Under the pieces are notes generated by a model. That model searched no databases. It had not been told where the DNA came from and was given only the letters and a program-made list of their open reading frames with translations. Positions 42,492 to 64,000 of a stretch of DNA of 64,000 nt are shown here, in pieces. Numbering within the stretch: the stretch's first letter is position 1; each line of letters opens with the position of its first letter. A program made the translations under genes and the position numbers. Source of the DNA: Cypionkella sp. (GTDB lineage Bacteria > Pseudomonadota > Alphaproteobacteria > Rhodobacterales > Rhodobacteraceae); assembly GCF_030652235.1 (NCBI RefSeq), contig NZ_JAUSBA010000027.1:1-64000 (forward strand). The letters run 5' to 3'.

Positions 42492-42502
42492 AAGGCGTTG
42501 AT

Positions 42503-49548: not shown

Positions 49549-50340
49549 CTATTTGGTGGTTCGGTTGCGCCGCGCGGCCAAGGCCCAGACGGTGAACGCC
49601 ACCAAGGTGACGGCCATCAGAACCACAGCAGCAGCAGCAACGGTTGGATCGGTATTTTCGCGGATGCCGTTCCACATCCGGCGCGGCAAGGTGTAGACGC
49701 TGAATTTTGACAAAAACAACGTGACAACGATTTCGTCCCAAGACGAGATGAACGCGAACACAGCCCCCGCCAGAATGCCGGGTTTGATGCCCGGAACGAT
49801 CACGCGGCGTATTGTGGTCCAGTTTGACGCCCCAAGATTGCGCGAGGCTTGTTCCAGCCTTGGATCAAAGCCCGCCAAGGACGCAGAGACGGTGATCAGC
49901 ACGAGGGGCGCTGACAAAACGGTGTGGGCAAGGATCAGGCCCGCATAGCTGTCTATCAGGCCCAAAGGGACGAACAGGCGGTAGAACGCCATCGCAGCGA
50001 TGATCGGCGGGATCACCAGCGGCAGCAGCAGGATCGCGCGCACCACCTCACCGGCTTTGGAGGACACGCGCCACAGCCCAATGGCGCAAAGCGTGCCAAT
50101 CGCGGTGGCCAGCAGGGTTGAGGCGATGGCAATCACCGCGCTTTGCCAGAAGCTGGACATCCATTCCGGGCTGCTGAAAAGCTTGATGTAATATTGCAGC
50201 GAAAGCTCGTTTGTCGGGAAAGACAGAAAGCGTTTCGGGGTAAGCGATACGGGAATGGCGACCAAAGCCGGGGCGACAAGAAACACCAGCAAGACCCATG
50301 ACAGGCCCGAGTTGAACCGCGCGGGAAGGCCGGCCTTCAT
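49549..50340 (-). CDS. PotC-type ABC permease (carnitine-type operon)
   Basis: A 263-residue, six-helix permease. SWVLLVFLVAPALVAIPVSLTP is the first helix and FDPRLEQASRNLGASNWTTIRRVIVPG the EAA loop. It overlaps the PotB-type gene stop (ATGA) and pairs with that permease and the PotA/PotD-type proteins encoded upstream. Confidence 0.86.
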   Translation of the reverse strand: MKAGLPARFNSGLSWVLLVFLVAPALVAIPVSLTPKRFLSFPTNELSLQYYIKLFSSPEWMSSFWQSAVIAIASTLLATAIGTLCAIGLWRVSSKAGEVVRAILLLPLVIPPIIAAMAFYRLFVPLGLIDSYAGLILAHTVLSAPLVLITVSASLAGFDPRLEQASRNLGASNWTTIRRVIVPGIKPGILAGAVFAFISSWDEIVVTLFLSKFSVYTLPRRMWNGIRENTDPTVAAAAVVLMAVTLVAFTVWALAARRNRTTK

Positions 50341-51188
50341 GCTTTACCCCCCCCAAAAACGGTTGAAAGCTTCATGAAACGCGACATCAGGAACAAGAGC
50401 GCCAACACGCCAAACAACATGAGCGCCGCCAGCATCGCCGCCGTGCCCCATTGCAGCGTGACCAAGACCTGAACCGAGATGTATTCGGCGACCATCAGCA
50501 CTTTGCCGCCCCCCAGGACCGCAGGCACGACATAAAAGCCGAGGTTGATGATAAATACCAAAAGTGAGGCGGCAACTATGCCTGCGCGGGTCAGCGGCAG
50601 ATAGACGCGCCAGAACGTCTGCGCTCCGGTGGCCCCAAGCGAGCGAGACGCCTGCACCACGCGCCCGTCAATGCTTTGCATCGAGGCCAGGATCGGCAGA
50701 ACCGCATAGGGAACCATATAATGGACCATGCCGATCAGCACGCCCAACTCATTTCGCATGAATGAAATCGGTTGTGAGATAATGCCAAGGGCTTCGAGGC
50801 CGTTGTTCACAACACCATTGCGACCCAAAAGCATCAGCCATGAAAAGGTGCGCACAAGGACCGAAATCCAGAATGACATCAGCAAGAGCCCAAGCATTTT
50901 ATTGCGTGAGGCATCGGCGGCATGAACCATGGCGTAGGCGATGGAATAGCCCAGCGCGACGCTGATCGCAGTGGATATCACGCAGATCCGGACGGTTGTC
51001 CCGATAATCCGGCCAAGGGAATCAGAGGTGAAAAGTTTGGCGTAGTTGCCAAGCCCCGGGGTGGGTTCGCTGACACTCAGCCAAAGTATGTTCACAATTG
51101 GGCCAAGAAACAGGGCGACCACCAACACGAGGAAGGGCAGCACTAGAATCCATCCGGTATTCAAGACATGACGTGGCAAAGCGCTCAT
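50337..51188 (-). CDS. PotB-type ABC permease (carnitine-type operon)
   Basis: A 283-residue permease. ILVLPFLVLVVALFLGPIVNILWLSVSEP is the first helix and DGRVVQASRSLGATGAQTFWRVYLPLT the EAA loop. It starts 67 bases after the binding-protein stop, beyond a hairpin that could reduce its expression relative to that protein. Confidence 0.86.
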   Translation of the reverse strand: MSALPRHVLNTGWILVLPFLVLVVALFLGPIVNILWLSVSEPTPGLGNYAKLFTSDSLGRIIGTTVRICVISTAISVALGYSIAYAMVHAADASRNKMLGLLLMSFWISVLVRTFSWLMLLGRNGVVNNGLEALGIISQPISFMRNELGVLIGMVHYMVPYAVLPILASMQSIDGRVVQASRSLGATGAQTFWRVYLPLTRAGIVAASLLVFIINLGFYVVPAVLGGGKVLMVAEYISVQVLVTLQWGTAAMLAALMLFGVLALLFLMSRFMKLSTVFGGGKA

Positions 51189-51255: not shown

Positions 51256-52362
51256 TCAGCTAATCGCTGCAAGGAAGGCGTTCACAGCGGCATCGGTATT
51301 TTCGCCCCACCACGTGGGATCATTCATCACCACATTCGGCAAGTTCGCCGCCGAGGTGATGGAATAGGGCTGATCTGCTTCGGCCAAGGCGGCGATTGCC
51401 TCGGGATTGGTCGGGGTCATGCCAAGACAGGCGAAGAGATCAAGCTGGGCCTGAACCGATTGTGCCGTTGCGATGAACTTCATCACCGCGGCCCCACCCG
51501 GATTGCCTTTGGGCACGATGTAAGCGCCCGGCATCGCGATGGCTTGGTTCGTGACCAACTTGTAACGGCCATTGGTATCATTCTCAATCGAGCGGCCCCG
51601 GTTTTGCCAGACCATGCCCATGGAAACTTCGCCGTTCACGATCATCTGCTGGGCTTCGGCACCCGACCCCCAGTAAATCGTGTCTGCCTTGATCGCTTTG
51701 ATCTTGGCCAGCGCCCGATCCATATCCAAAGGGTAAAGGGCGTCTTTTGCAACGCCATCGGCCATCAAAGCGGCTTCAAGTGAACCGTTGGCCCATTTGT
51801 AAAGTGAACGGGTGCCGGGGAATTTGGTGGTGTCGAAAAAATCTGCCCAAGTGCTTGGCGCGCCATCCGGGTACGTTTGGGTGTCATACATGAAGGCGTA
51901 GCCGTAAAGGATGATTGAGACCCCAAACTCCAACGCATAACCGTCAATGGTCTTGGCCTTGTCGACCACGGTGTAGTCGATTGGCTCCAGATGGCCAGTT
52001 TTGCCCAAAGCGACGGCATCGAACAGATCACCATCGCAGACATCGGCAGTGACATTGCCACTGTCGACCATTTCCTTGATCTTGCCCTGAAGCGGGCCGG
52101 ATGTGTCAAACTTCAACGGGATACCGGTTTCGGCGGTGAAGGCGTTGCCGATGGCGCTGGTGTGACATTCTTCCGACTGGCCACCCCAGTTCCACATCAC
52201 GATCTCACCGGCGGCGGCTTCGGCGCGGCCTGCCAACACCGAGGCGCTAGCGAATCCCGCCATGCCGCAAAGTGCCAGAAAACTGCGCCGCCCCATCTTG
52301 CCCGCTTGGAAAGCCTGAGCGCCTTGCAGCAGCGATTCACGCATAAACTGTTTGTCGTGCAT
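51256..52362 (-). CDS. PotD-type ABC substrate-binding protein (carnitine/betaine candidate)
   Basis: A 368-residue periplasmic protein. ATG 52362 is eight bases from AGGAGG; ATG 52368 is too close to it. The Tat-type signal is GRRSFLALCGMAGFASASVLAGRAEA. The mature part begins AAGEIVMWNWGGQSEECHTSAIGNAFTAETG, typical of the polyamine/opine/betaine binding group. Its position after the ATPase and before catabolic genes for carnitine-like compounds makes a trimethylammonium ligand likely. That is inference. Confidence 0.83.
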   Translation of the reverse strand: MHDKQFMRESLLQGAQAFQAGKMGRRSFLALCGMAGFASASVLAGRAEAAAGEIVMWNWGGQSEECHTSAIGNAFTAETGIPLKFDTSGPLQGKIKEMVDSGNVTADVCDGDLFDAVALGKTGHLEPIDYTVVDKAKTIDGYALEFGVSIILYGYAFMYDTQTYPDGAPSTWADFFDTTKFPGTRSLYKWANGSLEAALMADGVAKDALYPLDMDRALAKIKAIKADTIYWGSGAEAQQMIVNGEVSMGMVWQNRGRSIENDTNGRYKLVTNQAIAMPGAYIVPKGNPGGAAVMKFIATAQSVQAQLDLFACLGMTPTNPEAIAALAEADQPYSITSAANLPNVVMNDPTWWGENTDAAVNAFLAAIS

Positions 52363-52438
52363 TTTCATTCCTCCTGTTGAGTGGGTCAGAACGACCCTGT
52401 TTCATGTCACCGGGTTGATCCCGGCTTTGGCTTATCAA

Positions 52439-53446
52439 TTAGCTTTGGTCGTTCAGCCGCACGGCGGCGTTGTCCGCCCAGGTCAGATCGACGGGGCTGT
52501 GTTCCGGCAGCGGCGCACCACCGCGCCAAGCATCCACATCGACTTCGATCAGCCCCATGCCCAGCACTTCGACCTGATATTTAAGCACCGACCCAAAATA
52601 GGTGACTGACTGCACAATGCCGGCCACCTTGTTGGCCCCCTGCCCGTGGCCAGCCGCCGCAAGATCGATTTTCTCCGGGCGCAGCGCATAAACTGCGCCG
52701 TCCCGGTGCAGGAAGTTGCTTTTGCCAAGGAAACTTGCCGCAAAGCGCGTGGTTGGCTGCTGATAGAGAGCTGTCGGTGTGCCCAACTGTTCGATATGAC
52801 CATTTCGCATGATCACAATGCGATCCGACATCGACAGCGCCTCTTCCTGATCATGTGTCACATAAACAAACGTAGTGCCGATGCGGTGGTGGATGTCTTT
52901 CAACTGCGCCTGCACTTCGGTTCTCAGGTTTTTGTCCAGAGCCCCCAAGGGTTCATCCAGCAACAACACCGGAGGCGCAAAGCACAGCGCCCGTGCCAAA
53001 GCGACGCGCTGCTGTTGGCCACCCGAAAGCTCTTTTGGCAGACGATGCGCGAAGTCGCCCAAGCGCACCAACTCCATCATCTCGCCCACACGGGCATCAA
53101 TCTCGGCCTTGGGGCGTTTGCGCACCGACAACGGATAGGCGATGTTGTCGCGCACAGTCATGTGGGGAAACAGCGCGTAGCCTTGAAATACCATGCCAAA
53201 GTTGCGTTTTTCCGCCGGCATGGCGGCAATAGAGCGGCCGTCCAGCAAGATATCGCCCGAGGTGATGTCCTGAAACCCGGCCATCATCATCAAAAGCGTG
53301 GTCTTGCCAGAACCAGACGGGCCAAGCAGCGTCAGAAACTCACCACTTTGGATTTCAAGATCAACATTTTCAACGGCGGTGAAGGTGCCATAGTGCTTGG
53401 TCAGCGCCTTCAACTGCAGGCTGCCGCTTTTGCCGAGCTCTGCCAT
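52439..53446 (-). CDS. PotA-type ABC ATP-binding protein (carnitine-type operon)
   Basis: A 335-residue ATPase. Walker A GPSGSGKTT, Q-loop VFQGYALFPH, signature LSGGQQQR, Walker B VLLLDEP, switch VTHDQEEAL, and a TOBE domain (FLHRDGAVYALRPEKIDL). It follows the CdhC-like gene with two bases between stop and start and is the second gene of the operon. Confidence 0.88.
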   Translation of the reverse strand: MAELGKSGSLQLKALTKHYGTFTAVENVDLEIQSGEFLTLLGPSGSGKTTLLMMMAGFQDITSGDILLDGRSIAAMPAEKRNFGMVFQGYALFPHMTVRDNIAYPLSVRKRPKAEIDARVGEMMELVRLGDFAHRLPKELSGGQQQRVALARALCFAPPVLLLDEPLGALDKNLRTEVQAQLKDIHHRIGTTFVYVTHDQEEALSMSDRIVIMRNGHIEQLGTPTALYQQPTTRFAASFLGKSNFLHRDGAVYALRPEKIDLAAAGHGQGANKVAGIVQSVTYFGSVLKYQVEVLGMGLIEVDVDAWRGGAPLPEHSPVDLTWADNAAVRLNDQS

Positions 53447-53448
53447 GC

Positions 53449-54339
53449 TCAGGCGACCGCGCCGCGAAGTTTCAACTTGTTGCGCGCCTCTTGCGGCGTC
53501 AGCGCCCGTGCGCCCATGCGTTCGACAATGCCAATCACCCGTTCGACCAGTTGGGCGTTGGTCGCGAGCACACCCCGATCAAGGAACAGATTGTCTTCCA
53601 ACCCCACCCGGACGTTGCCGCCCATCGCGACGGCGGCGGCTGCCATTGGCATCTGCATGCGGCTAATGCCGAAACTTGCCCAGCTTGCGTCAGGCGGCAG
53701 ATGCTCTTTCATGGCCTTCATGGTTTCGACGGTTTGATCCGCGCCCCACGGAATCCCCAGACACAGTTGGAACATCGGCGGATCAGCCAGCAGGCCTTCA
53801 GCCACCATCTGGCGGGCAAAGCGGATGTGGCCTAGTTCAAAAACCTCAAGCTCGGGCTTTACGCCCCATTCCTTTGTCAGCGCCGCCATTCGGCGCAGAA
53901 TCGGAGGCGTGGAAATGTAGATGCTGTTATCATTGCCGAAGTTCAGCGTGCCGCAATCCAGCGAGCAAATTTCCGGCATGCAATCCTTCACATGGGCCAG
54001 CCGTTCGTCTGGCCCGATCATGTCGGTTCCAGGCCCCGGCATCGCCCAGTTCAGGGCATCTGGCGTCCAATCTCCGCCCATTCCGGCGGTCAGGTTGATG
54101 ACAACATCGGTGCCGCTGTCGCGGATGCGTTCAACCACTTCGCGGAACAAGGCAGGGTCGCGAGAGCCCTTTCCGGTTTCAGGATCGCGGACATGAATAT
54201 GGGCAATGGCGGCGCCGGCTTTCGCGGCCTCTATGGCTGCATGCGCAATTTCTGCTGGTGTTACAGGCACATGCGGGCTCTTGCCCATAGTATCGCCTGC
54301 TCCGGTTACAGCACATGTCACCACAACTTCGAAGTTCAT
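53449..54339 (-). CDS. cdhC: Dehydrocarnitine cleavage enzyme (BKACE/DUF849 family, CdhC-like)
   Basis: A 296-residue TIM barrel from ATG 54339 ([28 protein letters not shown]) with GGGAGACC upstream. The Zn-binding pair is H47/H49 in [11 protein letters not shown], and [29 protein letters not shown] holds the later acidic ligand. It resembles the carnitine-pathway CdhC subgroup of beta-keto-acid cleavage enzymes almost throughout. The reaction is 3-dehydrocarnitine + acetyl-CoA to betainyl-CoA + acetoacetate. It heads the minus-strand operon and faces the CdhR-type regulator across a 78-base promoter. Confidence 0.85.
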
Positions 54340-54417
54340 TTCGGTCTCCCTGTTTCGCTTTATCTTGTGCGCAAGATTTCGATTTCCTTTCATTTATTCG
54401 CCATATATCCTTCATCG
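54340..54417. promoter_or_regulatory. Divergent cdhC/cdhR-type promoter with shared motifs
   Basis: The 78-base A/T-rich interval contains CTTGTGCGCAAG (54364-54375) and TTATTCGCCA (54394-54403). Near copies (CTTTTGCGCAAG and TTTTCGCCAC) stand next to each other upstream of the LLM-operon at 58491-58514, and TTTTCGCCA recurs at 60160. This pattern suggests a common regulator, probably the GlxA-type activator encoded here. The assignment is inferred. Confidence 0.5.
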
Positions 54418-55536
54418 ATGTCGAAAAATCGCACCACCTATCCAGATGATCCCACGGCTTCCAGCCCTTCGATGGATGTGAAGGAAATCGCCCTTACAAA
54501 CGTGACGTTCCTGATCGTGCCGCGCTTTAACATGGCGACGCTGATGACCGTGATCGAGCCGATGCGGATCGCGAATTATCTGTCGCCACGGCCAATTTAC
54601 AGCTGGGAAATTGTCTCGTTTGACGGCGATGAGATCGTGGCAAGCAATGGTTTTTCTTTGCCCGCACATGCGCCTACAAACCGCAATCGGCGCGGCGAGG
54701 TGATCTTCGTCATGGGCAGTTGGGGCGCTGAAAGTTATCGCAACACCACGTTGTTTTCATGGATTCGCAGGCAGGCCCGTGAGGGCGCACGGATTTGCGC
54801 GGTGGAACTTGGCACCTATCTGGTGGCGCGATCCGGAATCTTGTCGGGGCGCAGCGTGACCACGCATTGGTCCTACGGGCCGGGATTTCAGGAGCAATTT
54901 CCCGACATCACATTTGTCGAACAAATATATACCGGTGACGATGGGATGATGACCTGCGGCGGCGGGATGGCGGGGGTAGATATGATGCTGCGCCTGATTG
55001 GTGAAGCCCATGGGGAAAGCCTTATCGGTGAGATCGCGGACCAACTTATGCATCACCCCGTGCGTCCGGCGACGGCTCCGCAACGCCGCACGATGGGACG
55101 CAGCACCGATACGATGGTGCCAATGGTGCGCGAGGCGATTGCCCTGATTGAGCGGAATATCACCGAACCGCTAAGCGTTCCGGATATTGCCGATGCGTTG
55201 GCGGTATCACAACGTCAGATGGAGCGGCAATTCAAGCAGACGATTGGCTGCACGGTTGTGCAGTTTGGCTTGCTTTTGCGGTTGCAGCACGCACGGGTTT
55301 TGCTGATCTCGACCACCCTCAGCGTGCGCGACATTGCGACGGCATCCGGGTTTAATACGCTGTCGCATTTCGCGTTTTCGTTCGGAAAGTGCTTTGGACG
55401 CAGGCCCAGCGAATACCGTCAGGCTTGGCCGGAAAAAGACAGCGCCCCCAGTTGGCCGGGGACACTGTCGAAATTTTTGCTGGCGTTGCAGAACCGGGGC
55501 ACTGCGAAACCGATTCAGGTTCTGCGCAAAAGCTGA
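54418..55536 (+). CDS. GlxA/CdhR-family AraC-type regulator
   Basis: A 372-residue protein from ATG 54418 (MSKNRTTYPDDPTASS); the longer frame runs through the promoter and cdhC. The N-terminal DJ-1/PfpI-like domain (VTFLIVPRFNMATLMTVIEPMRIANYL, GARICAVELGTYLVARSGILSGRSVTTHW) has Glu at the usual nucleophile position, typical of non-enzymatic GlxA sensors. The C-terminal AraC double helix-turn-helix is LSVPDIADALAVSQRQMERQFKQTIG and LSVRDIATASGFNTLSHFAFSFGKCFGRRPSEYR. CdhR of pseudomonads, in the same family, activates carnitine dehydrogenase genes. The stop is 2 bases from the convergent carnitine dehydrogenase-like gene. Confidence 0.85.
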   Translation: MSKNRTTYPDDPTASSPSMDVKEIALTNVTFLIVPRFNMATLMTVIEPMRIANYLSPRPIYSWEIVSFDGDEIVASNGFSLPAHAPTNRNRRGEVIFVMGSWGAESYRNTTLFSWIRRQAREGARICAVELGTYLVARSGILSGRSVTTHWSYGPGFQEQFPDITFVEQIYTGDDGMMTCGGGMAGVDMMLRLIGEAHGESLIGEIADQLMHHPVRPATAPQRRTMGRSTDTMVPMVREAIALIERNITEPLSVPDIADALAVSQRQMERQFKQTIGCTVVQFGLLLRLQHARVLLISTTLSVRDIATASGFNTLSHFAFSFGKCFGRRPSEYRQAWPEKDSAPSWPGTLSKFLLALQNRGTAKPIQVLRKS

Positions 55537-55538
55537 AA

Positions 55539-56483
55539 CTAGCGGCGGACGTCGCGGATCGCGTTCAGAACAGCAACGATTTCGCGGTCACGCGTGACCG
55601 CCAAATCTTCAAAATGTCGTCCGGCGGCGATGTCATTGCAGCCGTCCACCATGCGATCTCGCAACTCTTGGGTCAGTTCAGGCGCTTCCAGACGCGTCCA
55701 AGGCCATTTCAAGGCTGGGCCGAATTGGTCCAGATTGGTCGCCATGCCTCCCTCGCCACAGGCCACATGAAACGCCATGCATTGTCCCTGCACCGCCATC
55801 CGTGGCGCAGGGCCGTTCATCAGGGCGTTGTCAATATCGGCGGGGGTTGCTTCGCCGTTGGCGACCATGTGCAGCGCTTCACGCCAGAGCGCTTCTTGCA
55901 GGCGAGTGGCGACAAATCCCGGGATTTCCTTTTTCATCGCCAGCGGCGCTTTACCCGCAATCTGGTAAAACGCAACCGCCCAAGCCACAGCCGCAGGGCT
56001 GCTGCCTTTGCCGCCGACCACTTCGACCAAGGGCAAAAGATAGGGGGGGTTGAAGGGGTGGCCGATAACCGTGCGCTGCGGGGTCATGCAGTTGGCCTGA
56101 ATCTGGCTCATCGTCAGGCCCGAGGTGGACGAGGCAATGACGCAAGTTTCAGGCGCGAGTTCGCCCAGACGTTGGTAAAGCGCCTGCTTGATGTCCAGCC
56201 GTTCGGGCGCGCTTTCCTGAATGAACTGTGCTTCCCGCACCGCGTCTGCCAGATCGGTGGTGATGCGCAACCGGTCCCGTGATGCACCGGGGGCCAGACC
56301 CAAGGCCATCAGACTGATCCAGCCGGTATTGATCACCGACATCAGCGCCGGCACTTCGGCATCAGAATGAACATAGGCGGTAACATCATAGCCGCGCGCT
56401 AGAAAATGGGCGGCCCAACCGCCACCGATGGGTCCAGCGCCGATTGTTGTAATGCGAGTGACGGATTTGGGGTCGGGATACAT
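55539..56483 (-). CDS. L-carnitine 3-dehydrogenase-like (3-hydroxyacyl-CoA dehydrogenase fold)
   Basis: A 314-residue NAD enzyme from ATG 56483 (MYPDPKSVTRITTIGAGPIGGGW). The Rossmann loop is GAGPIGGGW (15-23) and the catalytic-His region VIGHPFNPPYLLPLVEVVGG (His142). FGPALKWPWTRL in the C-terminal domain is characteristic of the carnitine dehydrogenase subgroup rather than FadB-type enzymes. It converts carnitine to 3-dehydrocarnitine, the substrate of the CdhC-like enzyme. No thioesterase domain is fused, unlike some rhizobial versions. It is last in the LLM-CaiD-dehydrogenase operon. Confidence 0.82.
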   Translation of the reverse strand: MYPDPKSVTRITTIGAGPIGGGWAAHFLARGYDVTAYVHSDAEVPALMSVINTGWISLMALGLAPGASRDRLRITTDLADAVREAQFIQESAPERLDIKQALYQRLGELAPETCVIASSTSGLTMSQIQANCMTPQRTVIGHPFNPPYLLPLVEVVGGKGSSPAAVAWAVAFYQIAGKAPLAMKKEIPGFVATRLQEALWREALHMVANGEATPADIDNALMNGPAPRMAVQGQCMAFHVACGEGGMATNLDQFGPALKWPWTRLEAPELTQELRDRMVDGCNDIAAGRHFEDLAVTRDREIVAVLNAIRDVRR

Positions 56484-56544
56484 CGTGCGGACTTTCAGGT
56501 AAAAGGGAGGAGCGATTTTTTCGTCCAAAAGGCGGATTGTGGCT

Positions 56545-57345
56545 TTAGCGGCCCTTGAAGACGGGATCGCGTTTTTCGACAAACGCCGCGATGCCTTCGG
56601 CAGAATCTTCGGATTTCAGCATGGCGCGGTAGGTTGGCAGATCGCCTGTACGCATGTGGTTGAAGGCCACTTCCAAAGGCATGGCCTGAATGGCGCGTTC
56701 AACTTCCTTGACGGTTTGCATCGCAAGCGGCGCGGATCCCGCAATCTGATCCGCCCAAGCGCGGGCGGTTTCCATCAGGCTTTCTTTCGGCACCACCTTG
56801 TTCACAAGGCCGTAATGCGCCGCCTCTGCCGCAGGCATCCGACGCCCCAGCAGCAGCATTTCCATTGCGATGTTGCGCGGAATCAGGCGCGGCAGGCGTT
56901 GCAGCGCGCCTGCGTCCGGCACAATCCCCAAGGGCATTTCCGGCAGGCCAAACTGCACATGATCTGCGGCGATGATCAGATCGCAGGACATGGCAATTTC
57001 AAACCCTCCACCAATCGCCATACCGTTCAAGGCGCAAATCACTGGCTTGTTCATCTGCCAGTTTTCCGTCAACCCGCCAAAGCCGCCGATGCCATAATCA
57101 GCGGTTTCCCACCAGTTATCCAACGTCATCTCACCCGCGTTAAGCGCTTTGAGATCCCATCCGGCGGAAAAGATGCGGTCGCCTTCCGCCGTCAGAATCC
57201 CAACCCAAAGGTCAGGATCGTCGCGCAACAAGGCAAAGGCGCGCCCCATATCCTGGCTCATCGCGACGTCAATCGCGTTCACTTTTGGCTTGTTCAGCTT
57301 TATTTCCAGCACCCGGCCGCGGCGGGTAACTTCAACATGGCTCAT
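56545..57345 (-). CDS. caiD: Carnitinyl-CoA dehydratase / crotonobetainyl-CoA hydratase (CaiD-like)
   Basis: A 266-residue crotonase. FSAGWDLKALNAGE is diagnostic of CaiD, and the active-site glutamates are E116 (GGGFEIAMSCDL) and E136 (FGLPEMPLGIVPDAG), matching E111/E131 of E. coli CaiD. The C-terminus DSAEGIAAFVEKRDPVFKGR also follows CaiD. It interconverts crotonobetainyl-CoA and carnitinyl-CoA. The start has AAGGAA upstream. It follows the LLM gene by 25 bases and precedes the carnitine dehydrogenase-like gene. Confidence 0.87.
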   Translation of the reverse strand: MSHVEVTRRGRVLEIKLNKPKVNAIDVAMSQDMGRAFALLRDDPDLWVGILTAEGDRIFSAGWDLKALNAGEMTLDNWWETADYGIGGFGGLTENWQMNKPVICALNGMAIGGGFEIAMSCDLIIAADHVQFGLPEMPLGIVPDAGALQRLPRLIPRNIAMEMLLLGRRMPAAEAAHYGLVNKVVPKESLMETARAWADQIAGSAPLAMQTVKEVERAIQAMPLEVAFNHMRTGDLPTYRAMLKSEDSAEGIAAFVEKRDPVFKGR

Positions 57346-57370: not shown

Positions 57371-58405
57371 TCAGGCGAAAGCCGGGATGACTTCCTTACA
57401 AAACAACTCCAACGAGCGTTTTTGCTCGGCGAGACCTAGGCCAAGGCTGGCGTAGTAGATGAATTCATCCACACCCAGCGCCTGATAGAGTTTCAATTTC
57501 GCAATCACCTCATCGGGTGTGCCAAGCATCAGATTGCGGTGCAGCATGTCAGGATCATATTCCGCGCGGTTGCCAAGCTGATCAAACGGGATGGCTTTCG
57601 GGAAGCCGTTTTCGACATCGCCCATGTTCTTGAACAGATTTTCAAACTGCGAAAGCTGGCGCTGTGCGGCGCGAATTGGCACCATCCAATCCTCTTTTCG
57701 GTCATAAACGGCGGTGTGGCGCATCATCGCCATGATCGGGCGTTTGGAGCCGGGGTTGTTGGTCATAGCCTCGTCCATGCGGCCCATGTAGATTTCCGCT
57801 TCGGACATATCGCGGGTCAGAGGCCAAGACATGATATTGCAGCCATTCTTGACCGCGTAATCATAGGTGATCGGGGCGCGCGCGGCGATCCAGACCGGCA
57901 CTTCCGCCTGCAACGGTTTGGGGCAAGAGGTGGAGGTGGGGAAGTTCCAGAATTCGCCGGTGTGATCATAATCGCCTTTCCAGAGCGCGCGCACCGCAGG
58001 CAGCATTTCTTGCATGTAGCGCCACGCGTCGGATTGTTTCAGACCCGGGTGCATGCGGTCAAACTCGCGCTGATAGGCGCCGGAACCGATGCCAAACTCC
58101 AACCGCCCGCCCGAGATCAGATCCACGAAAGCCGCCTCTCCGGCAACTTTGATCGGATGCCAATAGGCGGCGGCGACGCAGGCGGTGCCAAGGCGGATGC
58201 GGTCGGTATGGCCCGCCCACCACGTCAGCACCGAAAACGGATTGGGCGCGATGGTCATTTCCAGCGCGTGATGTTCGGCGGCCCACGCGATGTTGAAGCC
58301 ACCCAGTTCGGCCATCTGAACCATGTCAATCGTGTGACGCGCGACGTCCTTCATATCCAGACTTTCGTCCATCCGTTCCAAATTAATGGCGAGTTGAAAC
58401 TTCAT
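57371..58405 (-). CDS. LLM-class flavin-dependent monooxygenase (two-component oxygenase)
   Basis: A 344-residue luciferase-fold oxygenase from ATG 58405 with GGAGG six bases upstream. Motifs: AELGGFNIAWAAEHHALEMTIAPNPFSVLTWWAG, RLGTACVAAAYWHPIKVAGEAAFVDLISGGRLEFGIGSG, and a long C-terminal active-site insert. Group C oxygenases such as RutA and TgnB use FMNH2 supplied by a separate reductase. The only flavin reductase seen nearby is the one fused to the CoA-transferase at 61437-63530. It heads the LLM-CaiD-dehydrogenase operon. The substrate is unknown; a nitrogen-containing compound related to carnitine or a heterocycle is plausible. Confidence 0.83.
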   Translation of the reverse strand: MKFQLAINLERMDESLDMKDVARHTIDMVQMAELGGFNIAWAAEHHALEMTIAPNPFSVLTWWAGHTDRIRLGTACVAAAYWHPIKVAGEAAFVDLISGGRLEFGIGSGAYQREFDRMHPGLKQSDAWRYMQEMLPAVRALWKGDYDHTGEFWNFPTSTSCPKPLQAEVPVWIAARAPITYDYAVKNGCNIMSWPLTRDMSEAEIYMGRMDEAMTNNPGSKRPIMAMMRHTAVYDRKEDWMVPIRAAQRQLSQFENLFKNMGDVENGFPKAIPFDQLGNRAEYDPDMLHRNLMLGTPDEVIAKLKLYQALGVDEFIYYASLGLGLAEQKRSLELFCKEVIPAFA

Positions 58406-58464
58406 ATCATCCTCCACGATTGCGCTTTGTTACAGGAATGTTGGTTGGAACCGCGGGCAATAAT

Positions 58465-58514
58465 GTCGAAATTTCGACGTTGGTTGCGTTTTTTCGCCAC
58501 AACTTTTGCGCAAG
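58465..58514 (-). promoter_or_regulatory. LLM-operon regulatory region with palindrome and shared motifs
   Basis: GTCGAAATTTCGAC (58465-58478) is a perfect 14-bp palindrome 60 bases upstream of the LLM start. TTTTCGCCAC (58491-58500) and CTTTTGCGCAAG (58503-58514) follow, both shared with the other promoters of this island. A terminator to the right isolates this promoter from the aldehyde dehydrogenase gene. Confidence 0.5.
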
Positions 58515-58534
58515 CTGGCACAGGCAAAAATAGC

Positions 58535-58559
58535 AGGGCCAGCCGCGATGGCTGGCCCT
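58535..58559 (-). terminator. Rho-independent terminator of the aldehyde dehydrogenase gene
   Basis: AGGGCCAGCC (58535-58544) and GGCTGGCCCT (58550-58559) form a 10-bp perfect stem with a 5-base loop, followed on the minus strand by GCTATTTTTGCC. It lies 25 bases beyond the aldehyde dehydrogenase stop. Confidence 0.9.
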
Positions 58560-58583
58560 GAAGGTCACTGCATCAAAGTCGGT

Positions 58584-60065
58584 TCAGCGCATGACGAAAG
58601 GATTGGCCATCGGTTCGGTTGACGTATTGACCCAAACCGTCTTGGGCCGGGTGTAGTCATACATCGCCTGCAATCCGCTTTCGCGGCCATAACCGGAGCC
58701 TTTCACGCCGCCAAATTCCGCGATGGGCGACACCACGCGGTAGGTGTTGATCCAGACAATTCCCGACCGGATCGCCTTGGCCATTCGCATTTGACGCGCG
58801 CCATCGCGGGTGAAAACGCCTGCGGCAAGCCCGTGTTTCGTATCATTGGCCAGCGCAATCGCCTCTGCCTCGGTCTTGAACCGCAGAACGGACAGCACCG
58901 GGCCGAACAGTTCGGTATCAACGATCCGCAAATCCTGACGCGGACACTCGATGATGGTCGGTTCATAATAGGTGCCGCCCAAACCGTCGGGTTGCTTGCC
59001 GCCGCATAGAACGCGGCCACCTTCGGTTTGCGCATGTGCCACTTCGCGTTCAATCGTCGCCAGTTGGCCCTGTGTGCACAGCGGGCCCATCTGGGTGTCT
59101 TCGTCCAAAGGATCGCCGATGCGGATTTGTCGGGCAAGGCCGACCATCTTTTCAAGGAACGCATCCGCAATGTCTTCATGCAGATAGAGCCGCGATCCTG
59201 CCACACAGCTTTGCCCGGTGGCGCCGAATATACCTGCAATCGAGCCGTTCACCGCACTGTCGATATCGGCGTCTTCAAACACGATGAACGGGGATTTTCC
59301 GCCCAGTTCCAACGACACCTGCGCAAAGTTTTCGCATGAATTGGTCAGCACAGCGCGCCCCGCCCCCGCGCCGCCGGTAAATGAAATCCGCGCCACCAAA
59401 GGGTGCGCTGTCAACACCCGACCGCAGGGTTCGCCGTGGCCCGACACAATGTTCACCACGCCCGGCGGAAAGCCCGCAGCTTCGATCAATTCGCCAAATT
59501 CCAGCATCGCGGCAGAGGCGTGTTCAGACGCCTTCAGCACCACAGTATTGCCAGCCGCCAGCGCGGGGCCAATTTTCACCGCCACAAGGAATAGCTGCGA
59601 ATTCCATGGCACGATGGCGGCGACGACACCCAAGGGTTCGCGTCTGGTGAACACAAACAAATCCGGCTTATCGATTGGCAGCGTTTCACCGGAAATCTTG
59701 TCGGCACAACCGGCATAAAAGTGGAAAAACTCGGCAATGTATTTCGCCTGCCAGCGGGTTTCTTTCAGCATCTTGCCGGTATCGATGGTTTCGATGCGGC
59801 CCAAGCTTTCGGATTTCTCAGCCAGCAAATCCCCCAGTTTACGCAGGCAGCGGCCCCGCGCCGAGGGGCTCATCTCGGCCCAAGGGCCAGAGGTAAAGGC
59901 GCGATCCGCTGCCCGAACCGCACGATCAACATCTTCGGCGGTTGCTTCTGGCACACGGCACCAAACTTTGCCGGTGGTTGGATTGGTGCTTTCGAACAGC
60001 GCGCCATCCGACGCCCCGACCCAAACGCCATCAATCAGCATTTGATAGTCCTTGATTGCAGTCAC
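58584..60065 (-). CDS. Aldehyde dehydrogenase (betaine/trimethylaminobutyraldehyde-type candidate)
   Basis: A 493-residue NAD(P)-dependent enzyme from GTG 60065 with GGGAGGG upstream; the frame to 60329 crosses the divergent promoter. Active-site Cys287 is in GQSCVAGSR and Glu253 in LELGGKSP, and the NAD-binding FTGGAGAGR loop is at 229-237. It oxidises an aldehyde to the acid. Here it could make gamma-butyrobetaine from the trimethylamino-aldehyde or act on the LLM-branch product. It is monocistronic, divergent from the RidA operon across a strong palindrome. Confidence 0.88.
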   Translation of the reverse strand: MTAIKDYQMLIDGVWVGASDGALFESTNPTTGKVWCRVPEATAEDVDRAVRAADRAFTSGPWAEMSPSARGRCLRKLGDLLAEKSESLGRIETIDTGKMLKETRWQAKYIAEFFHFYAGCADKISGETLPIDKPDLFVFTRREPLGVVAAIVPWNSQLFLVAVKIGPALAAGNTVVLKASEHASAAMLEFGELIEAAGFPPGVVNIVSGHGEPCGRVLTAHPLVARISFTGGAGAGRAVLTNSCENFAQVSLELGGKSPFIVFEDADIDSAVNGSIAGIFGATGQSCVAGSRLYLHEDIADAFLEKMVGLARQIRIGDPLDEDTQMGPLCTQGQLATIEREVAHAQTEGGRVLCGGKQPDGLGGTYYEPTIIECPRQDLRIVDTELFGPVLSVLRFKTEAEAIALANDTKHGLAAGVFTRDGARQMRMAKAIRSGIVWINTYRVVSPIAEFGGVKGSGYGRESGLQAMYDYTRPKTVWVNTSTEPMANPFVMR

Positions 60066-60159
60066 CCCGCAGCCCTCCCTTAAGTCTGTCTGATCGTGCC
60101 AGCATGACGCTGCCAGCCTGAGGTTGATACTGATCGCGACAGGCCGAAGAATGTGCGGA

Positions 60160-60182
60160 TTTTCGCCACGGCTTGGCGAAAA
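60160..60182. promoter_or_regulatory. 9-bp-arm palindromic operator between aldehyde dehydrogenase and RidA genes
   Basis: TTTTCGCCA (60160-60168) and TGGCGAAAA (60174-60182) form a perfect inverted repeat with a 5-base centre (CGGCT). It lies 95 bases upstream of the aldehyde dehydrogenase GTG and 58 bases upstream of the RidA ATG. The same half-site appears upstream of the LLM operon. Confidence 0.65.
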
Positions 60183-60239
60183 AAGCACAACGGGTGACGG
60201 TTGGGCGGTGTTTGATGACACCTCAAGGGGAGAAATTAT

Positions 60240-60647
60240 ATGCCAAATTGCAAAACCGTAATCGGCGAACCCTTGGTGATTGCCGGGCGAACGCTGTCGC
60301 TGTCGCGTGCCATTCGTGCGGGTGATCATGTGTATTTAACCGGGCAAATCCCGATGAAAAATGGGGTTCCGATGACCGATGGCAGCATCGAAGACCAAAC
60401 CCGTGCGGTGTTGGATGCTATCACCGAGACCTTGGCTTTGGCCGCCTGCGCGCGATCGGATGTCGTAAAGGCGATGATCTGGCTGCGCGACCGCGCTGAT
60501 TTTGCAGGGTTTAACGCTGTTTACGGGGAATATTTTCCGATTGACCCGCCCGCACGGTCCGCCGTTGTGAGTGAGCTTTTGGTCGATTGCCGGGTTGAAA
60601 TAGAAGTCGTCGCGTGGCGGCCCCTTCCCGGCACGGCGCCCCAATGA
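60240..60647 (+). CDS. RidA-family (YjgF/RutC-like) protein
   Basis: A 135-residue member of the Rid superfamily. VYLTGQIPMKNG and PARSAVVSELLVDCRVEIEVVAW include the conserved Arg that binds the carboxylate of enamine/imine substrates (PARSAV). Rid proteins hydrolyse reactive imines or, as RutC, aminoacrylate-type products of ring cleavage. ATG 60240 has AGGGGAG upstream. It is first gene of the plus-strand operon, overlapping the alpha/beta hydrolase gene by 4 bases. Confidence 0.85.
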   Translation: MPNCKTVIGEPLVIAGRTLSLSRAIRAGDHVYLTGQIPMKNGVPMTDGSIEDQTRAVLDAITETLALAACARSDVVKAMIWLRDRADFAGFNAVYGEYFPIDPPARSAVVSELLVDCRVEIEVVAWRPLPGTAPQ

Positions 60648-61444
60648 TGCGCGCGCCCGATGGCACCGCTTATGACGTCTATGGCCCTGCGGATGCGCCC
60701 TTGGTCGTGCTTGTTCATGGGCTTGGCCTGACACGTGCAGTTTGGGACCTGACCATCCCTTATCTTGCCGGGAACTTTCGGGTGCTGGCCTATGATATCC
60801 TGGGGCACGGGCAAACACCCCCGCCTTCAGGCACGCCCAGCCTGACCCCGTTGGCGCGGCAGTTGGCTGATTTGCTGGATCATTCCAGTGCGAAAGCTGC
60901 GGCTTTGGTTGGGTTTTCGTTGGGGGGCATGATCGCGCGGCGCTTTGCGCAGGATTTCGCCGATCGCACGCAAGCGCTTGTCATCATGCACTCGCCCCAC
61001 CGCCGGACACCCGAGGCGCAGGCCGCCATTCTGGCGCGCGTCGCGCAGGCCAGCGGTGCGGGGCCTGCCTCGACGGTGGAAGCTGCGTTGACACGGTGGT
61101 TTACTGATGAGTTCCGCATGGCCAACCCAAGCGTCATGAACCGTGTTCGCGGCTGGGTGCTGGCGAATGACCCCAAAACCTATCCGTCCTTTTACAGCAT
61201 TCTGGCCGACGGGATTGATGAGATCGTGGCCCCTCAGCCACCCATCTGTTGCCCGACGCTGGTGATGACGGCCGATCAGGATTACGGCAACGGCCCCGAC
61301 ATGAGCATGGCCATCGCCGCCGAGATCGCCGGGGCTGAAACCATCATCCTTCCGGGCCTGCGCCACATGGCCTTGATGGAAGACCCGGTCCGCACCAATG
61401 CGGCTTTGGGGCGTTTTTTGCAAAAGGCGGTTCCCCGTGGTTGA
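60644..61444 (+). CDS. Alpha/beta hydrolase (RutD-like context)
   Basis: A 266-residue hydrolase from ATG 60644, overlapping the RidA stop (ATGA). LVVLVHGLGLTRAVWD is the oxyanion region, GFSLGGMIAR the nucleophile elbow with catalytic Ser, TADQDYGNGPD the acid region and GLRHMALMEDP the catalytic His. The combination RidA + alpha/beta hydrolase recalls RutC/RutD, where the hydrolase speeds removal of an aminoacrylate or carbamate. The substrate is inferred only from the neighbourhood. Its stop overlaps the fusion gene start by 8 bases. Confidence 0.83.
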   Translation: MMRAPDGTAYDVYGPADAPLVVLVHGLGLTRAVWDLTIPYLAGNFRVLAYDILGHGQTPPPSGTPSLTPLARQLADLLDHSSAKAAALVGFSLGGMIARRFAQDFADRTQALVIMHSPHRRTPEAQAAILARVAQASGAGPASTVEAALTRWFTDEFRMANPSVMNRVRGWVLANDPKTYPSFYSILADGIDEIVAPQPPICCPTLVMTADQDYGNGPDMSMAIAAEIAGAETIILPGLRHMALMEDPVRTNAALGRFLQKAVPRG

Positions 61445-63530
61445 TCCAAAAGGCATCCTTTCGGGCATCCGCGTGCTGGATCTGAGCCGCATGTTGTCAG
61501 GCCCCTATTGCACGATGATGCTGGCCGACAATGGCGCCGAAGTGATCAAGATCGAAGATCGCGGCGGCGATACCAGCCGCAGCAACGGCCCTTTCCGCGA
61601 CGATGATCCGAACCACGATTGGGCAGGCTATTTCGTCAGCCTGAACCGGTCGAAGAAAAGTGTCGTGCTGGATTTGAAATCCGAGTCTGGCAAAGCCGAT
61701 CTTTTGGCGCTGGTTGCGACTGCGGATGTGCTGGTGGAAAATTATCGCCCCGGCGTGATGGAGCGGTTGGGCCTGTCGTATGAACGGTTGGCAGACATCA
61801 ACCCCCGGCTGGTCTATGCGGCGATCCGGGGGTTTGGTGATCCGCGATCGGGGAGAAGCCCCTATGCGGATTGGCCCTCTTATGACGTGGTCGCGCAGGC
61901 GATGGGGGGGCTTATTTCCCTGACCGGACCAGATTCTACTACGCCAACCAAGGTAGGCCCCGGTATAGGCGATGTGTTTGCAGGCGCGTTGATGTCTTTT
62001 GGAATCCTTGCCGCACTGCGGCAGGCCGAAGCCACGGGGCGCGGGCAGTTCATTGATATTGCGATGTATGACGCCATGATCAGCCTGTGCGAGCGGGCAA
62101 TATATCAGCATGATTTCGACGGCTCGATCCCCGGTCCAGAGGGCAACGGTCACCCGCTTCTGGCCCCATTTGGGGTGTTTGCGGCCAAAGATGGCCATGT
62201 GGCTTTGGGGGTTGTTGACGATACGTTCTGGCAGGCTTTGGCGCAGGCTATGGAGCAACCCGGCTGGGCTACGGACCCACGCTTTGCCACGCGGGCGGCG
62301 CGGCGCGTCCACGCGTCGGTGCTTAATCCTTTGGTGGCCGAGTGGACTGCGCGCCACTCCAAGGTCGAGCTTGCGCAGAAACTGGGTGGCAAGGTGCCGT
62401 TTGGACCAGTGAACACCGTGGCTGATATTTTTGCCGATCCGCATGTTGCAGCACGCGGTATGATTGCTACAATCCCTCACGCAGATGCGGGATCACGGCC
62501 TTGGCGGGTGGCGGCCAACCCGCTGCACTTTTCGACCAACCCCACGCCTGAACCGCAAGCCCCTGCCCGCTTGGGCGCGCAGTTGGCGCAGGACTTTCTG
62601 CCACCCGCCGTGGCCGATATTGACCCCCGCCGCCTGCGCGATGCCTTTGGCAGCTTTGCAACCGGCGTTACCGTGCTCACGGCCCGGCAAGCCGATGGTA
62701 CGCCACGAGGGTTCACCGCGAATTCTTTCAGCTCTGTTTCCCTCGACCCGCCGCTGTTGCTGGTTTGCCTTGCCAAAACGGCCCACAGTTGCGCGACGTT
62801 CATGGCGGCCAACCACTTTGGCGTGAATGTTCTTGGCAAGGATCAGCAGGCTGTTTCATCGCTTTTTGCCTCTCGCGCCGCCGACAAGTTTGAGCAGTGC
62901 AATTGGCATGCAGGCGCTGGCAACGTGCCACTGATTGAAGGGACACTGGCGCAGTTTGCCTGCCGTCAGGAACGTCTTGTCGATGCGGGGGATCACATCG
63001 TGCTTATTGGCAGAGTAATCCAATTCGCAACTGGAGAGCGCGCGCCCTTGGGCTATTTTCGGGGCCGTTATTTCTCGGTTGATGCCGATACACAGCTGGT
63101 GCAGGCCGTCGTTGCGGGGTCTGGGGCGCACATTGGCGCGGTGCTGATGCAAGATGGTGCCGTCCTTATGACGGTCGCTAACGATGGCGCGCTGTCGTTG
63201 CCCCTGTCCGCACAGCCGAGCCCAAGCATTGACAAGCTGCGGGACGCTCTGGCGGCACGTGGCCTGCACCCCGAGGTTGATTTCCTATATGCTGTGTTTG
63301 AAGATCGGATCGCCAAGACCCATGGTATTTATTACCACGGTTCGGTGCGCGGCGTGGCACCACAAGGAATGGAATTCTACGCCCTGCCAGATATCCCTTG
63401 GGAATCAATGAACAATCCTGCCGAACGTAGCATGCTGCAACGCTACTGCGAAGAATCCCGCGATGGCGCGTTCGGTATTTATCAGGGCAACGAAACTGAA
63501 GGAAAAGTGCGCCGCCTCCGCGGAGCCTGA
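61437..63530 (+). CDS. Fusion: CaiB-family CoA-transferase + flavin reductase + C-terminal domain
   Basis: About 697 residues from GTG 61437; ATG 61398 is an upstream alternative. Residues 1-390 are a class III CoA-transferase (IRVLDLSRMLSGPYCTMMLADNGAEVIKIE, SLNRSKKSVVLDLKS, catalytic Asp179 in GPGIGDVFAG). Residues 396-550 are a flavin reductase (LRDAFGSFATGVTVLTAR, GFTANSFSSVSLDPPLLLVCLAKTAHSCATFM, IGRVIQFATGERAPLGYFRG). Residues 555-697 form a further conserved-looking domain (AVLMQDGAVLMTVANDG) as in reductases that serve LLM oxygenases. No stop or frameshift breaks the joint. The reductase likely supplies FMNH2 to the LLM enzyme, and the transferase likely activates the same pathway's acid. 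Confidence 0.85.
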   Translation: MVDPKGILSGIRVLDLSRMLSGPYCTMMLADNGAEVIKIEDRGGDTSRSNGPFRDDDPNHDWAGYFVSLNRSKKSVVLDLKSESGKADLLALVATADVLVENYRPGVMERLGLSYERLADINPRLVYAAIRGFGDPRSGRSPYADWPSYDVVAQAMGGLISLTGPDSTTPTKVGPGIGDVFAGALMSFGILAALRQAEATGRGQFIDIAMYDAMISLCERAIYQHDFDGSIPGPEGNGHPLLAPFGVFAAKDGHVALGVVDDTFWQALAQAMEQPGWATDPRFATRAARRVHASVLNPLVAEWTARHSKVELAQKLGGKVPFGPVNTVADIFADPHVAARGMIATIPHADAGSRPWRVAANPLHFSTNPTPEPQAPARLGAQLAQDFLPPAVADIDPRRLRDAFGSFATGVTVLTARQADGTPRGFTANSFSSVSLDPPLLLVCLAKTAHSCATFMAANHFGVNVLGKDQQAVSSLFASRAADKFEQCNWHAGAGNVPLIEGTLAQFACRQERLVDAGDHIVLIGRVIQFATGERAPLGYFRGRYFSVDADTQLVQAVVAGSGAHIGAVLMQDGAVLMTVANDGALSLPLSAQPSPSIDKLRDALAARGLHPEVDFLYAVFEDRIAKTHGIYYHGSVRGVAPQGMEFYALPDIPWESMNNPAERSMLQRYCEESRDGAFGIYQGNETEGKVRRLRGA

Positions 63531-63544
63531 AAAAGGAAATGCAG

Positions 63545-64000
63545 ATGTTCCCTGAACTACGCAAAGTCGTGACCTATGATGAAGTGATCTACCGAGAAGG
63601 CGTGCGCGCAGCCGAGCCGCCACTTCGCTTAATCGGCGTGGCGGCCGTGGTCAAGAACCCATGGCACGGCCGCGGCTATGTTGAAGACCTGTCGCCTGAA
63701 ATTAACCGTATCGCCCCGCTTTTGGGGAAAATGTTGACTGATATGCTAATCGGTTTGGCAGGATCTGGCGATGCGATAGAGGCCTATGGCAAGGCGGCAA
63801 TGGCAGGCACGGATTGCGAACTGGAACACGGCTCGGCGCTGATCCACACGTTGCGGTTTGGCAATTTCTATCGCGAAGCGGTTGGGGCTAAGACCTATCT
63901 TGGCTTCACCAACAGCCGTGGCCCAGCCAATACCCAGATCCAAATTCCGCTGATGGATAAGCATGATAGCGGACGGCGGTCGCATTATCTGACGGTGCAA
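63545..64000 (+). CDS. DUF1185 (amino acid synthesis family) protein, truncated by the window edge
   Basis: 152 codons from ATG 63545 with AAGGA seven bases upstream, continuing past 64000; ATG 63539 is too close to the ribosome binding site. ELRKVVTYDEVIYREG, AAVVKNPWHGRGYVEDLSP and EAYGKAAMAGTDCELEHGSALIHTLRFG match the DUF1185 family, whose function is not established and whose genes often accompany flavin monooxygenase/CoA-transferase catabolic clusters. It starts 14 bases after the fusion gene, in the same operon. Confidence 0.85.
   Translation, partial: MFPELRKVVTYDEVIYREGVRAAEPPLRLIGVAAVVKNPWHGRGYVEDLSPEINRIAPLLGKMLTDMLIGLAGSGDAIEAYGKAAMAGTDCELEHGSALIHTLRFGNFYREAVGAKTYLGFTNSRGPANTQIQIPLMDKHDSGRRSHYLTVQ

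Follow-up and report, generated by a model that had tools for sequence, protein, structure and literature searches.

A gene cluster of Cypionkella sp., lying on contig NZ_JAUSBA010000027.1 (positions 1 to 64,000 were analysed as a whole and are called the window here), most likely encodes one catabolic pathway that draws on two known systems, each in a second and diverged copy, namely the trigonelline-type oxygenase system (Tgn) and the carnitine-type breakdown set. We put the probability that both halves serve one pathway at roughly 0.75. This reading is based on the gene content, the homology to both systems, the co-conservation of the two halves, the presence of closer separate copies of each in the same genome, and clade-specific substitutions in the beta-keto acid cleavage enzyme (BKACE) and in the carnitine-dehydrogenase-like 3-hydroxyacid dehydrogenase (CDH). 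The cluster spans approximately 45,162-64,147 and is wider than the stretch 57371-64000 which a sequence-only reading of this DNA had singled out; the host is a draft genome of 4.8 Mb, and the contig stops at 65480. The two pathway kinds themselves are already known, and what is new is the combination of a trigonelline-type and a carnitine-type half. The sequence-only reading had called such a combination undescribed, which holds within the open-licence literature in PMC, where our searches listed nothing on such a set of genes. Each half has a copy elsewhere in the genome that is closer to the known system, and the halves are co-conserved.

Genes were identified from open frames, Pfam matches and scores against curated models, together with synteny for the permeases and ATPase of an ATP-binding cassette (ABC) importer. 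The luciferase-like flavin monooxygenase (LLM), flavin reductase, RidA-family protein, alpha/beta hydrolase, aldehyde dehydrogenase (ALDH) and DUF1185 protein named earlier are all present and intact by open frames and Pfam matches. We found the motifs EHH in the LLM protein, GQSC and ELGGK in ALDH, GFSLG in the hydrolase, PARS and EIE in RidA, GIGD in the CoA-transferase and GHPFNP...E in CDH.

For the oxygenase half, the Tgn reference was the operon of an annotated Acinetobacter plasmid (gene order GntR, DUF1185, alpha/beta hydrolase, tgnA, tgnB, tgnC, cytosine permease, hypothetical protein, succinic semialdehyde dehydrogenase (SSADH)); the A. baylyi ADP1 sequence itself lay outside the comparison, and we assigned the labels TgnD, TgnE and TgnF to the plasmid hydrolase, SSADH and DUF1185 protein in this analysis. 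Like this operon, the window contains a two-component LLM oxygenase with its reductase, a TgnC-type dehydrogenase, an alpha/beta hydrolase and a DUF1185 protein, with identities of 61% to TgnF, 54.7% to TgnC, 39.2% to TgnB and 36% (over 298 aa) to TgnA; the hydrolase is a weak match to TgnD (27.9% over 244 aa) in which the nucleophile motif is there. The window ALDH sides with TgnC, since its identity to the SSADH taken as TgnE is 33.5%. The partial Tgn likeness proposed earlier is therefore stronger than claimed, extending to five Tgn families, and the DUF1185 protein, which had been counted as a partner foreign to Tgn, belongs to the family of TgnF. According to PMC7913881, TgnF is homologous to a DUF1185-family protein and stimulates the TgnE-dependent oxidation of succinic semialdehyde; Heal et al. 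(PMC8269262) give ring opening by TgnA/TgnB as the first step. The Foldseek top match of the window flavin reductase was 3rh7 (SMa0793, Sinorhizobium meliloti), with 38% identity over 293 columns. Its C-terminal domain is common to TgnA-type reductases and missing from the short reductases (~180-220 aa) of other LLM operons; by eye it may be a degenerate Nudix fold and may serve substrate sensing.

The other proposed analogy, a RutA/C/D/F-like toolkit, was rejected. Resemblance to the Rut pyrimidine pathway is confined to superfamily-level parts (LLM, RidA, hydrolase, flavin reductase), the scores against the Rut models fell far below their cut-offs (52/169 bits for RutC, 62/238.5 for RutD and 80/255 for RutF), the RutA model was not among the 25 best of 31 models matching the LLM protein, and no RutA-labelled chain occurred among its 10 PDB matches at E<=1e-10.

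The same genome holds, by homology, a close Tgn operon in addition to the distant one of the window. The genome gave eight Bac_luciferase matches, of which just two carry the motif G[AS]YxxE[FY]DR, namely the window gene and a gene of another contig (C39; locus L105, 5221-12146), where the operon has the Tgn order and identities of 70, 53, 52, 73 and 71% to TgnF, TgnD, TgnA, TgnB and TgnC, respectively. From its annotation and identity, the C39 operon would act on trigonelline; an arginase-family gene, read by eye, adjoins it. In an LLM tree of 111 rows, built by a quick method and with 37 of 108 inner branches weak, starred branches split the window LLM from the clade of Klebsiella, Pantoea/Acinetobacter-plasmid, Sinorhizobium, Leisingera and C39 proteins. 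The window protein is sister to TgnB and outside its clade. Two plasmid records behind this tree, CP060162.1 of Acinetobacter venetianus and NZ_CP083450.1 of Pantoea, have a common replicon type, near-equal length and equal LLM identity to Klebsiella; the former record may be misassigned, or the plasmid may have been transferred recently.

With a closer Tgn operon elsewhere in the genome, a plain trigonelline operon is unlikely. More broadly, the homologues of TgnA, B, C, D and F could mean that the window carries merely a divergent trigonelline (or homarine) operon beside unrelated genes, which we consider very improbable: besides the closer operon and the starred branches, no SSADH was seen in the cluster, and the carnitine half is co-conserved with it. 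By eye, no second ALDH was recognised among the open frames up to the contig end, and no SSADH label was found within 9 kb of the LLM gene in 38 loci that carry the carnitine half, a 41% homologue lying at the edge of L108. The window cluster also differs from Tgn in showing no cytosine permease and in adding RidA and a CoA-transferase fusion, tied to a beta-oxidation set.

The carnitine-type set of the window, comprising an acyl-CoA synthetase (ACS), an acyl-CoA dehydrogenase (ACAD), a CaiD-like hydratase, CDH and BKACE, is complete but diverged. These are the five enzyme families of the aerobic route from carnitine or gamma-butyrobetaine to glycine betaine, accompanied by a GlxA-type regulator, as on contig C73 of the same genome, where CaiD, ACS, ACAD, a 497-residue dehydrogenase, BKACE and a GlxA-type regulator are found. 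The C73 dehydrogenase, whose additional length is presumably a thioesterase, scores 745 bits against the carnitine 3-dehydrogenase model, above its cut-off of 592, whereas the single-domain window CDH stays below the cut-offs of both carnitine dehydrogenase models (262/592 and 306/414 bits). Identity to the C73 counterparts is 38-55% for the five window enzymes and 27% for the regulator. The crotonobetainyl-CoA hydratase model does not discriminate, since the window CaiD-like protein (313/500 bits) and the C73 copy (304/500 bits) both fall short. A canonical second carnitine set is also present in other genomes bearing window-type genes. Of the carnitine-type partners named in the sequence-only reading, the CaiD-like gene exists just outside the range given there (at 56545-57345), and the supposed CaiB is indeed a family III CoA-transferase, fused to the flavin reductase, although its best score was to succinyl-CoA:mesaconate CoA-transferase (NF041294; 433 bits, below the cut-off of 700) and it missed L-carnitine CoA-transferase, CaiB proper (123.5/413 bits). 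The window thus departs from the carnitine route in its CDH, in this CoA-transferase nearest the mesaconate/succinate type, and in a BKACE with Arg where carnitine BKACEs have Trp. Given the CDH models, the BKACE residues and the C73 copy, a plain carnitine cluster is held unlikely.

The BKACE comparison covered 42 rows of the window clade (some being one gene fetched twice) and seven canonical enzymes, and the CDH comparison 35 rows of at least 60% identity, with the SUP05-type rows left out, and eight canonical ones. In both enzymes, aromatic residues that the canonical copies conserve have been exchanged: W191R in 42/42 BKACE rows and F225M, W236A and Y250M in 40/42 each; W208H, F238C and F253N in all 35 CDH rows and W232M in 31. 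W191 is present in six of the seven canonical BKACEs, and we take this position to be the eighth residue after the catalytic glutamate. In the lysine-fermentation enzyme, whose substrate bears an amine, the aligned residue is Asp. The CaiD window clade loses F40, F58 and Y243. The signature LGxxR occurs in 39 of 39 distinct LLM-linked BKACEs, a term that covers any BKACE of at least 50% identity from the fetched LLM loci, with genome G105 included and G577 outside; TGxxW is found in six of the seven canonical enzymes (TGxxV in the other) and in the LLM-less genome G567. In the BKACE tree, the LLM-linked proteins form one side of a branch with support of 91, and the CDH grouping is drawn from identity and substitutions. 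Such replacements suggest that the head group of the substrate is other than trimethylammonium, and it may carry a carboxylate.

To follow the two halves across genomes, we took 82 loci whose LLM belongs to the window superclade, being the best 80 of at least 580 plus two plasmids. Many of these loci are truncated, either at a contig end or at the limit of the fetched flank. A CDH or BKACE orthologue lay within the fetched stretch in 38 of these loci, which also held CaiD (36), ALDH (33), ACS (31), ACAD (30), RidA (27), the hydrolase (21), flavin reductase (18) and DUF1185 (17), while ALDH was found in 13 and RidA in five of the 44 loci without the carnitine half. The window gene set recurs in one Aminobacter and on one Parasedimentitalea plasmid; the CoA-transferase/flavin-reductase fusion is present in 16 of the 82 loci, and in Aminobacter the flavin reductase is separate. 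An apparent loss of DUF1185 from L042, L043, L065 and L069 was rejected, as the gene lies further along the same contig, past the 10 kb flank, and other cluster members are found beyond the fetched stretch too.

In a sample of 390 genomes of the order (taken as Rhodobacterales; CDH at E<=1e-95, LLM at E<=1e-130), window-type CDH occurred in 10 and LLM in 25, and every one of the 10 CDH genomes had both, with a gap below 1 kb in nine. LLM proteins of at least 68% identity were present in 12 genomes, three of which had no CDH. The class sample (385 alphaproteobacterial genomes) gave CDH in nine, LLM in 13 and both in seven; the two genes were at most 7 kb apart in five of these seven and on separate draft contigs in two, in which the LLM stretch carried BKACE or the hydrolase and the CDH stretch other members. 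Two CDH genomes of this sample, G567 and G577, lacked LLM. Fisher tests of co-occurrence returned 1.6e-13 (order) and 2.6e-10 (class), values that ignore relatedness and come from samples sharing at least five genomes. The conserved co-occurrence on which the sequence-only reading had depended was therefore found. Loci with both halves were recovered from records of Rhodobacterales, Hyphomicrobiales, SAR116, Candidatus Thioglobus and Acidiferrobacter. The gammaproteobacterial loci of the SUP05/Acidiferrobacter type have both halves in a different gene order, a BKACE about 60% identical to that of the window and bearing its signature, and no flavin reductase labelled nearby.

Two observations concern individual genomes of this survey. 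One internal TAG interrupts the window-type CDH gene in G137:C7:9744-10688 and in G282:C34:164428-165366, where the gene may be decaying or misread. In Aminobacter sp. SR38 (L010:283-9087), a neighbouring operon of CoA-transferase, acyl-CoA dehydrogenase, MaoC hydratase, RipC/CitE-like lyase, MmgE/PrpD and electron transfer flavoprotein genes suggests the breakdown of an itaconate- or mesaconate-like acid; we dropped it as a downstream route, its members being unlabelled in most other loci.

An alternative to one pathway is that two independent betaine modules, for a pyridinium betaine (homarine or trigonelline) and for a carnitine relative, share one GlxA-type regulator because the compounds occur together. 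The LLM module does stand alone in places, and the carnitine half was repeatedly gained or lost on the LLM tree. Against these points stand the fusion of the CoA-transferase with the flavin reductase, the retention of both halves in lineages that differ in gene order, the related LLM in all CDH-bearing genomes of the order sample and the way RidA tracks the carnitine half (27/38 vs 5/44 loci), and we regard two modules as unlikely.

The loci where the halves part also inform on the LLM substrate. Other genomes have an operon of ALDH, LLM (59-66%), DUF1185 and hydrolase without carnitine genes (L058:7001-14517, L120, L122, L127). Accompanying genes in some of them encode a short flavin reductase, a regulator of the LysR type (L058 and L122, confirmed), a thiamine pyrophosphate enzyme of the acetolactate-synthase type (L058, L122, L127) or an adjoining OpuA/ProX-type importer (the binding protein of L058 is of the OpuAC family, and L120 and L122 have homologues of ProX/W/V). 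MTTB-family (trimethylamine methyltransferase) genes were seen beside carnitine-free LLM modules at L025:12315-14780 and L058:15551-17086. That LLM modules occur both with a carnitine half and without one suggests a similar LLM substrate in either case, to which the carnitine half would add an initial or a final section of the route. Ferrer-Gonzalez et al. (2026) have reportedly described the breakdown of homarine, likewise an N-methylpyridinium betaine, by environmental bacteria. The LysR-linked carnitine-free operons are possibly related to the published homarine operon. A link of homarine breakdown to N-methylglutamate dehydrogenase is given in PMC13390433.

These operons also bear on whether the LLM enzyme acts on a ring at all. 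Other LLM enzymes, such as NtaA and the diketocamphane monooxygenases, perform oxidative N-dealkylation or Baeyer-Villiger oxidation, and the window enzyme might do the same to an acyclic product of the carnitine half, with the Tgn resemblance as ancestry only. Four further Tgn families accompany the LLM gene, and the related carnitine-free operons retain LLM, ALDH, hydrolase and DUF1185, which makes this quite improbable.

Within the reading of a single pathway, we tentatively favour, at somewhat less than even odds, that an analogue of gamma-butyrobetaine, bearing an N-heterocyclic head group, has its side chain shortened before its ring is opened; the substrate class, the order of the halves and each catalytic step are what we infer. 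The ABC system would import an acid R-CH2-CH2-CH2-COOH, in which R would be a pyridinium-like N-heterocyclic head group instead of trimethylammonium, possibly with a carboxylate of its own. ACS or the CoA-transferase would activate the acid, and ACAD, the CaiD-like hydratase, the CDH-like enzyme and BKACE would remove two carbons along the lines of gamma-butyrobetaine breakdown, with acetoacetate and R-CH2-CO-CoA as products. The flavin reductase would then feed reduced flavin to the LLM oxygenase for a TgnB-style opening of the ring, the TgnC-like dehydrogenase would oxidize the resulting aldehyde, the hydrolase would take off a formyl group, and RidA would hydrolyse an enamine or imine, with the DUF1185 protein assisting in the manner of TgnF. 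Retention of ACS and ACAD (31 and 30 of the 38 loci) and of the importer fits a saturated acid that is imported and shortened first. The betaine heterocycle or carnitine relative proposed in the sequence-only reading stays plausible as a substrate, with a hint that features of both meet in one molecule.

The reverse order is a serious rival, though an unlikely one. Here LLM would open an N-methylpyridinium-type betaine, ALDH would give an acid of the N-formyl-N-methyl-4-aminobutenoate type, and the diverged carnitine set would handle this acid, because its skeleton is that of crotonobetaine, yielding N-formylglycyl-CoA and acetoacetate. Such a route would account for the lost residues that canonical carnitine enzymes conserve, for the mesaconate-like CoA-transferase and for an LLM kept with and without the carnitine half. 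However, ACAD and ACS would be superfluous for a product that is already unsaturated, and the window importer is unlike the OpuAC or ProX/W/V importers of some carnitine-free operons.

Several observations weigh against a single pathway acting on a carnitine-like heterocyclic compound. Six loci (L022, L025, L026, L027, L030, L031; four titled Tabrizicola, the others Rhodobacterales) have an LLM of 83-86% identity and no carnitine half, keeping ALDH, hydrolase, reductase and DUF1185; their genomes gave no BKACE above 54% and no CDH above 40%, and G026 no match at all. On the LLM tree, 17 changes are needed to explain the carnitine context, which shows that the halves can separate. In G105, the tenth CDH genome of the order sample, the carnitine half lies beside ALDH and the hydrolase with no adjacent LLM, the LLM (64%) sitting in another operon. 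The co-occurrence counts are not adjusted for genome relatedness. The SUP05/Acidiferrobacter-type CDH is 41-43% identical to that of the window, no nearer than canonical CDHs, and no DUF1185 was found at E<=1e-15 in G013, G018 and G021 of this type, nor in G016. As for the enzymes themselves, the hydrolase is merely 28% like TgnD, the canonical sets are small (7 BKACEs, 8 CDHs), aromatic residues are also gained at BKACE Y159, CDH F294, CaiD F115 and ACAD F121 and W247, and the BKACE structure model has a predicted local distance difference test (pLDDT) score of 65, too poor to place the substituted residues at the active site. We also know of no natural compound of this kind.

A wider claim would be that the trigonelline and carnitine pathways were duplicated and merged into a widespread route for N-heteroaromatic gamma-butyrobetaine or carnitine analogues, a class of natural compounds so far unrecognised, and that marine and soil bacteria, relatives of SAR116 and SUP05 among them, use it. 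We rate this as rather doubtful, a little below the shortening-first order. If true, environmental bacteria would cycle an overlooked nitrogen compound, and a BKACE with LGxxR beside a TgnB-like LLM would serve as a marker for metagenomes. Since the genome of the window has closer copies of both halves elsewhere, combined annotations of LLM, BKACE and carnitine dehydrogenase should not be taken to mean that trigonelline or carnitine is used.

The members of the cluster are collected in Table 1. The fusion frame of the CoA-transferase and flavin reductase domains runs over 61398-63530 on the forward strand. The ACAD was also considered as a glutaryl-CoA dehydrogenase, which its top PDB matches do not support. 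Homologues of the optional serine hydrolase were found at seven related loci with 39-61% identity.

Table 1 Members of the gene cluster, with window positions, strand and identifying evidence.
Feature	Position	Strand	Evidence
Serine hydrolase (beta-lactamase family), recurrent neighbour, optional member	45162..46328	-	PF00144 39.6 bits
NDP-forming acyl-CoA synthetase (ACS)	46286..48385	-	ATP-grasp_5, Succ_CoA_lig, CoA_binding_2
Short-chain-type acyl-CoA dehydrogenase (ACAD)	48382..49539	-	Top PDB matches are short-chain ACADs
Two ABC permeases	49549..51188	-	Open frames, syntenic with annotated ABC permeases
ABC substrate-binding protein	51256..52368	-	SBP_bac_8 110.7 bits
ABC ATPase	52439..53446	-	Open frame, syntenic with annotated ABC ATPases
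BKACE, LLM-linked clade, LGxxR signature	53449..54393	-	PF05853 337 bits
GlxA/GbdR-like AraC-family regulator, approximate start	54472..55536	+	HTH_18, DJ-1_PfpI; GbdR model 233.5/480 bits
CDH, single-domain, approximate start	55539..56492	-	3HCDH
CaiD-like enoyl-CoA hydratase	56545..57345	-	ECH_1 222.6 bits
LLM flavin monooxygenase, TgnB homologue (39%)	57371..58417	-	PF00296 177 bits
ALDH, TgnC homologue	58584..60065 (frame to 60329; likely start near 60065)	-	PF00171 549.6 bits
RidA-family protein	60240..60647	+	PF01042 88.6 bits; PARS and EIE motifs
Alpha/beta hydrolase, PcaD-like, weak TgnD homologue (28%)	60614..61444	+	PF00561 87.8 bits
CoA-transferase family III domain, N-terminal part of fusion	61398..62590	+	PF02515 416 bits
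Flavin reductase domain with C-terminal extra domain, C-terminal part of fusion, TgnA homologue	62598..63530	+	PF01613 137 bits
DUF1185/AA_synth, TgnF homologue (61%)	63539..64000, on to contig position 64147	+	PF06684 218.9 bits

Right after the cluster, at the contig end, transposase genes (HTH_Tnp_1 and integrase core, IS3-like) occupy contig positions 64578-65479. On the other side, window positions 39753-44509 adjoin the cluster and encode a further ABC importer and a 691-residue flavin mononucleotide (FMN) oxidoreductase with a FAD/NAD domain, which is trimethylamine-dehydrogenase-like by eye; this region may be an island for methylated amines.

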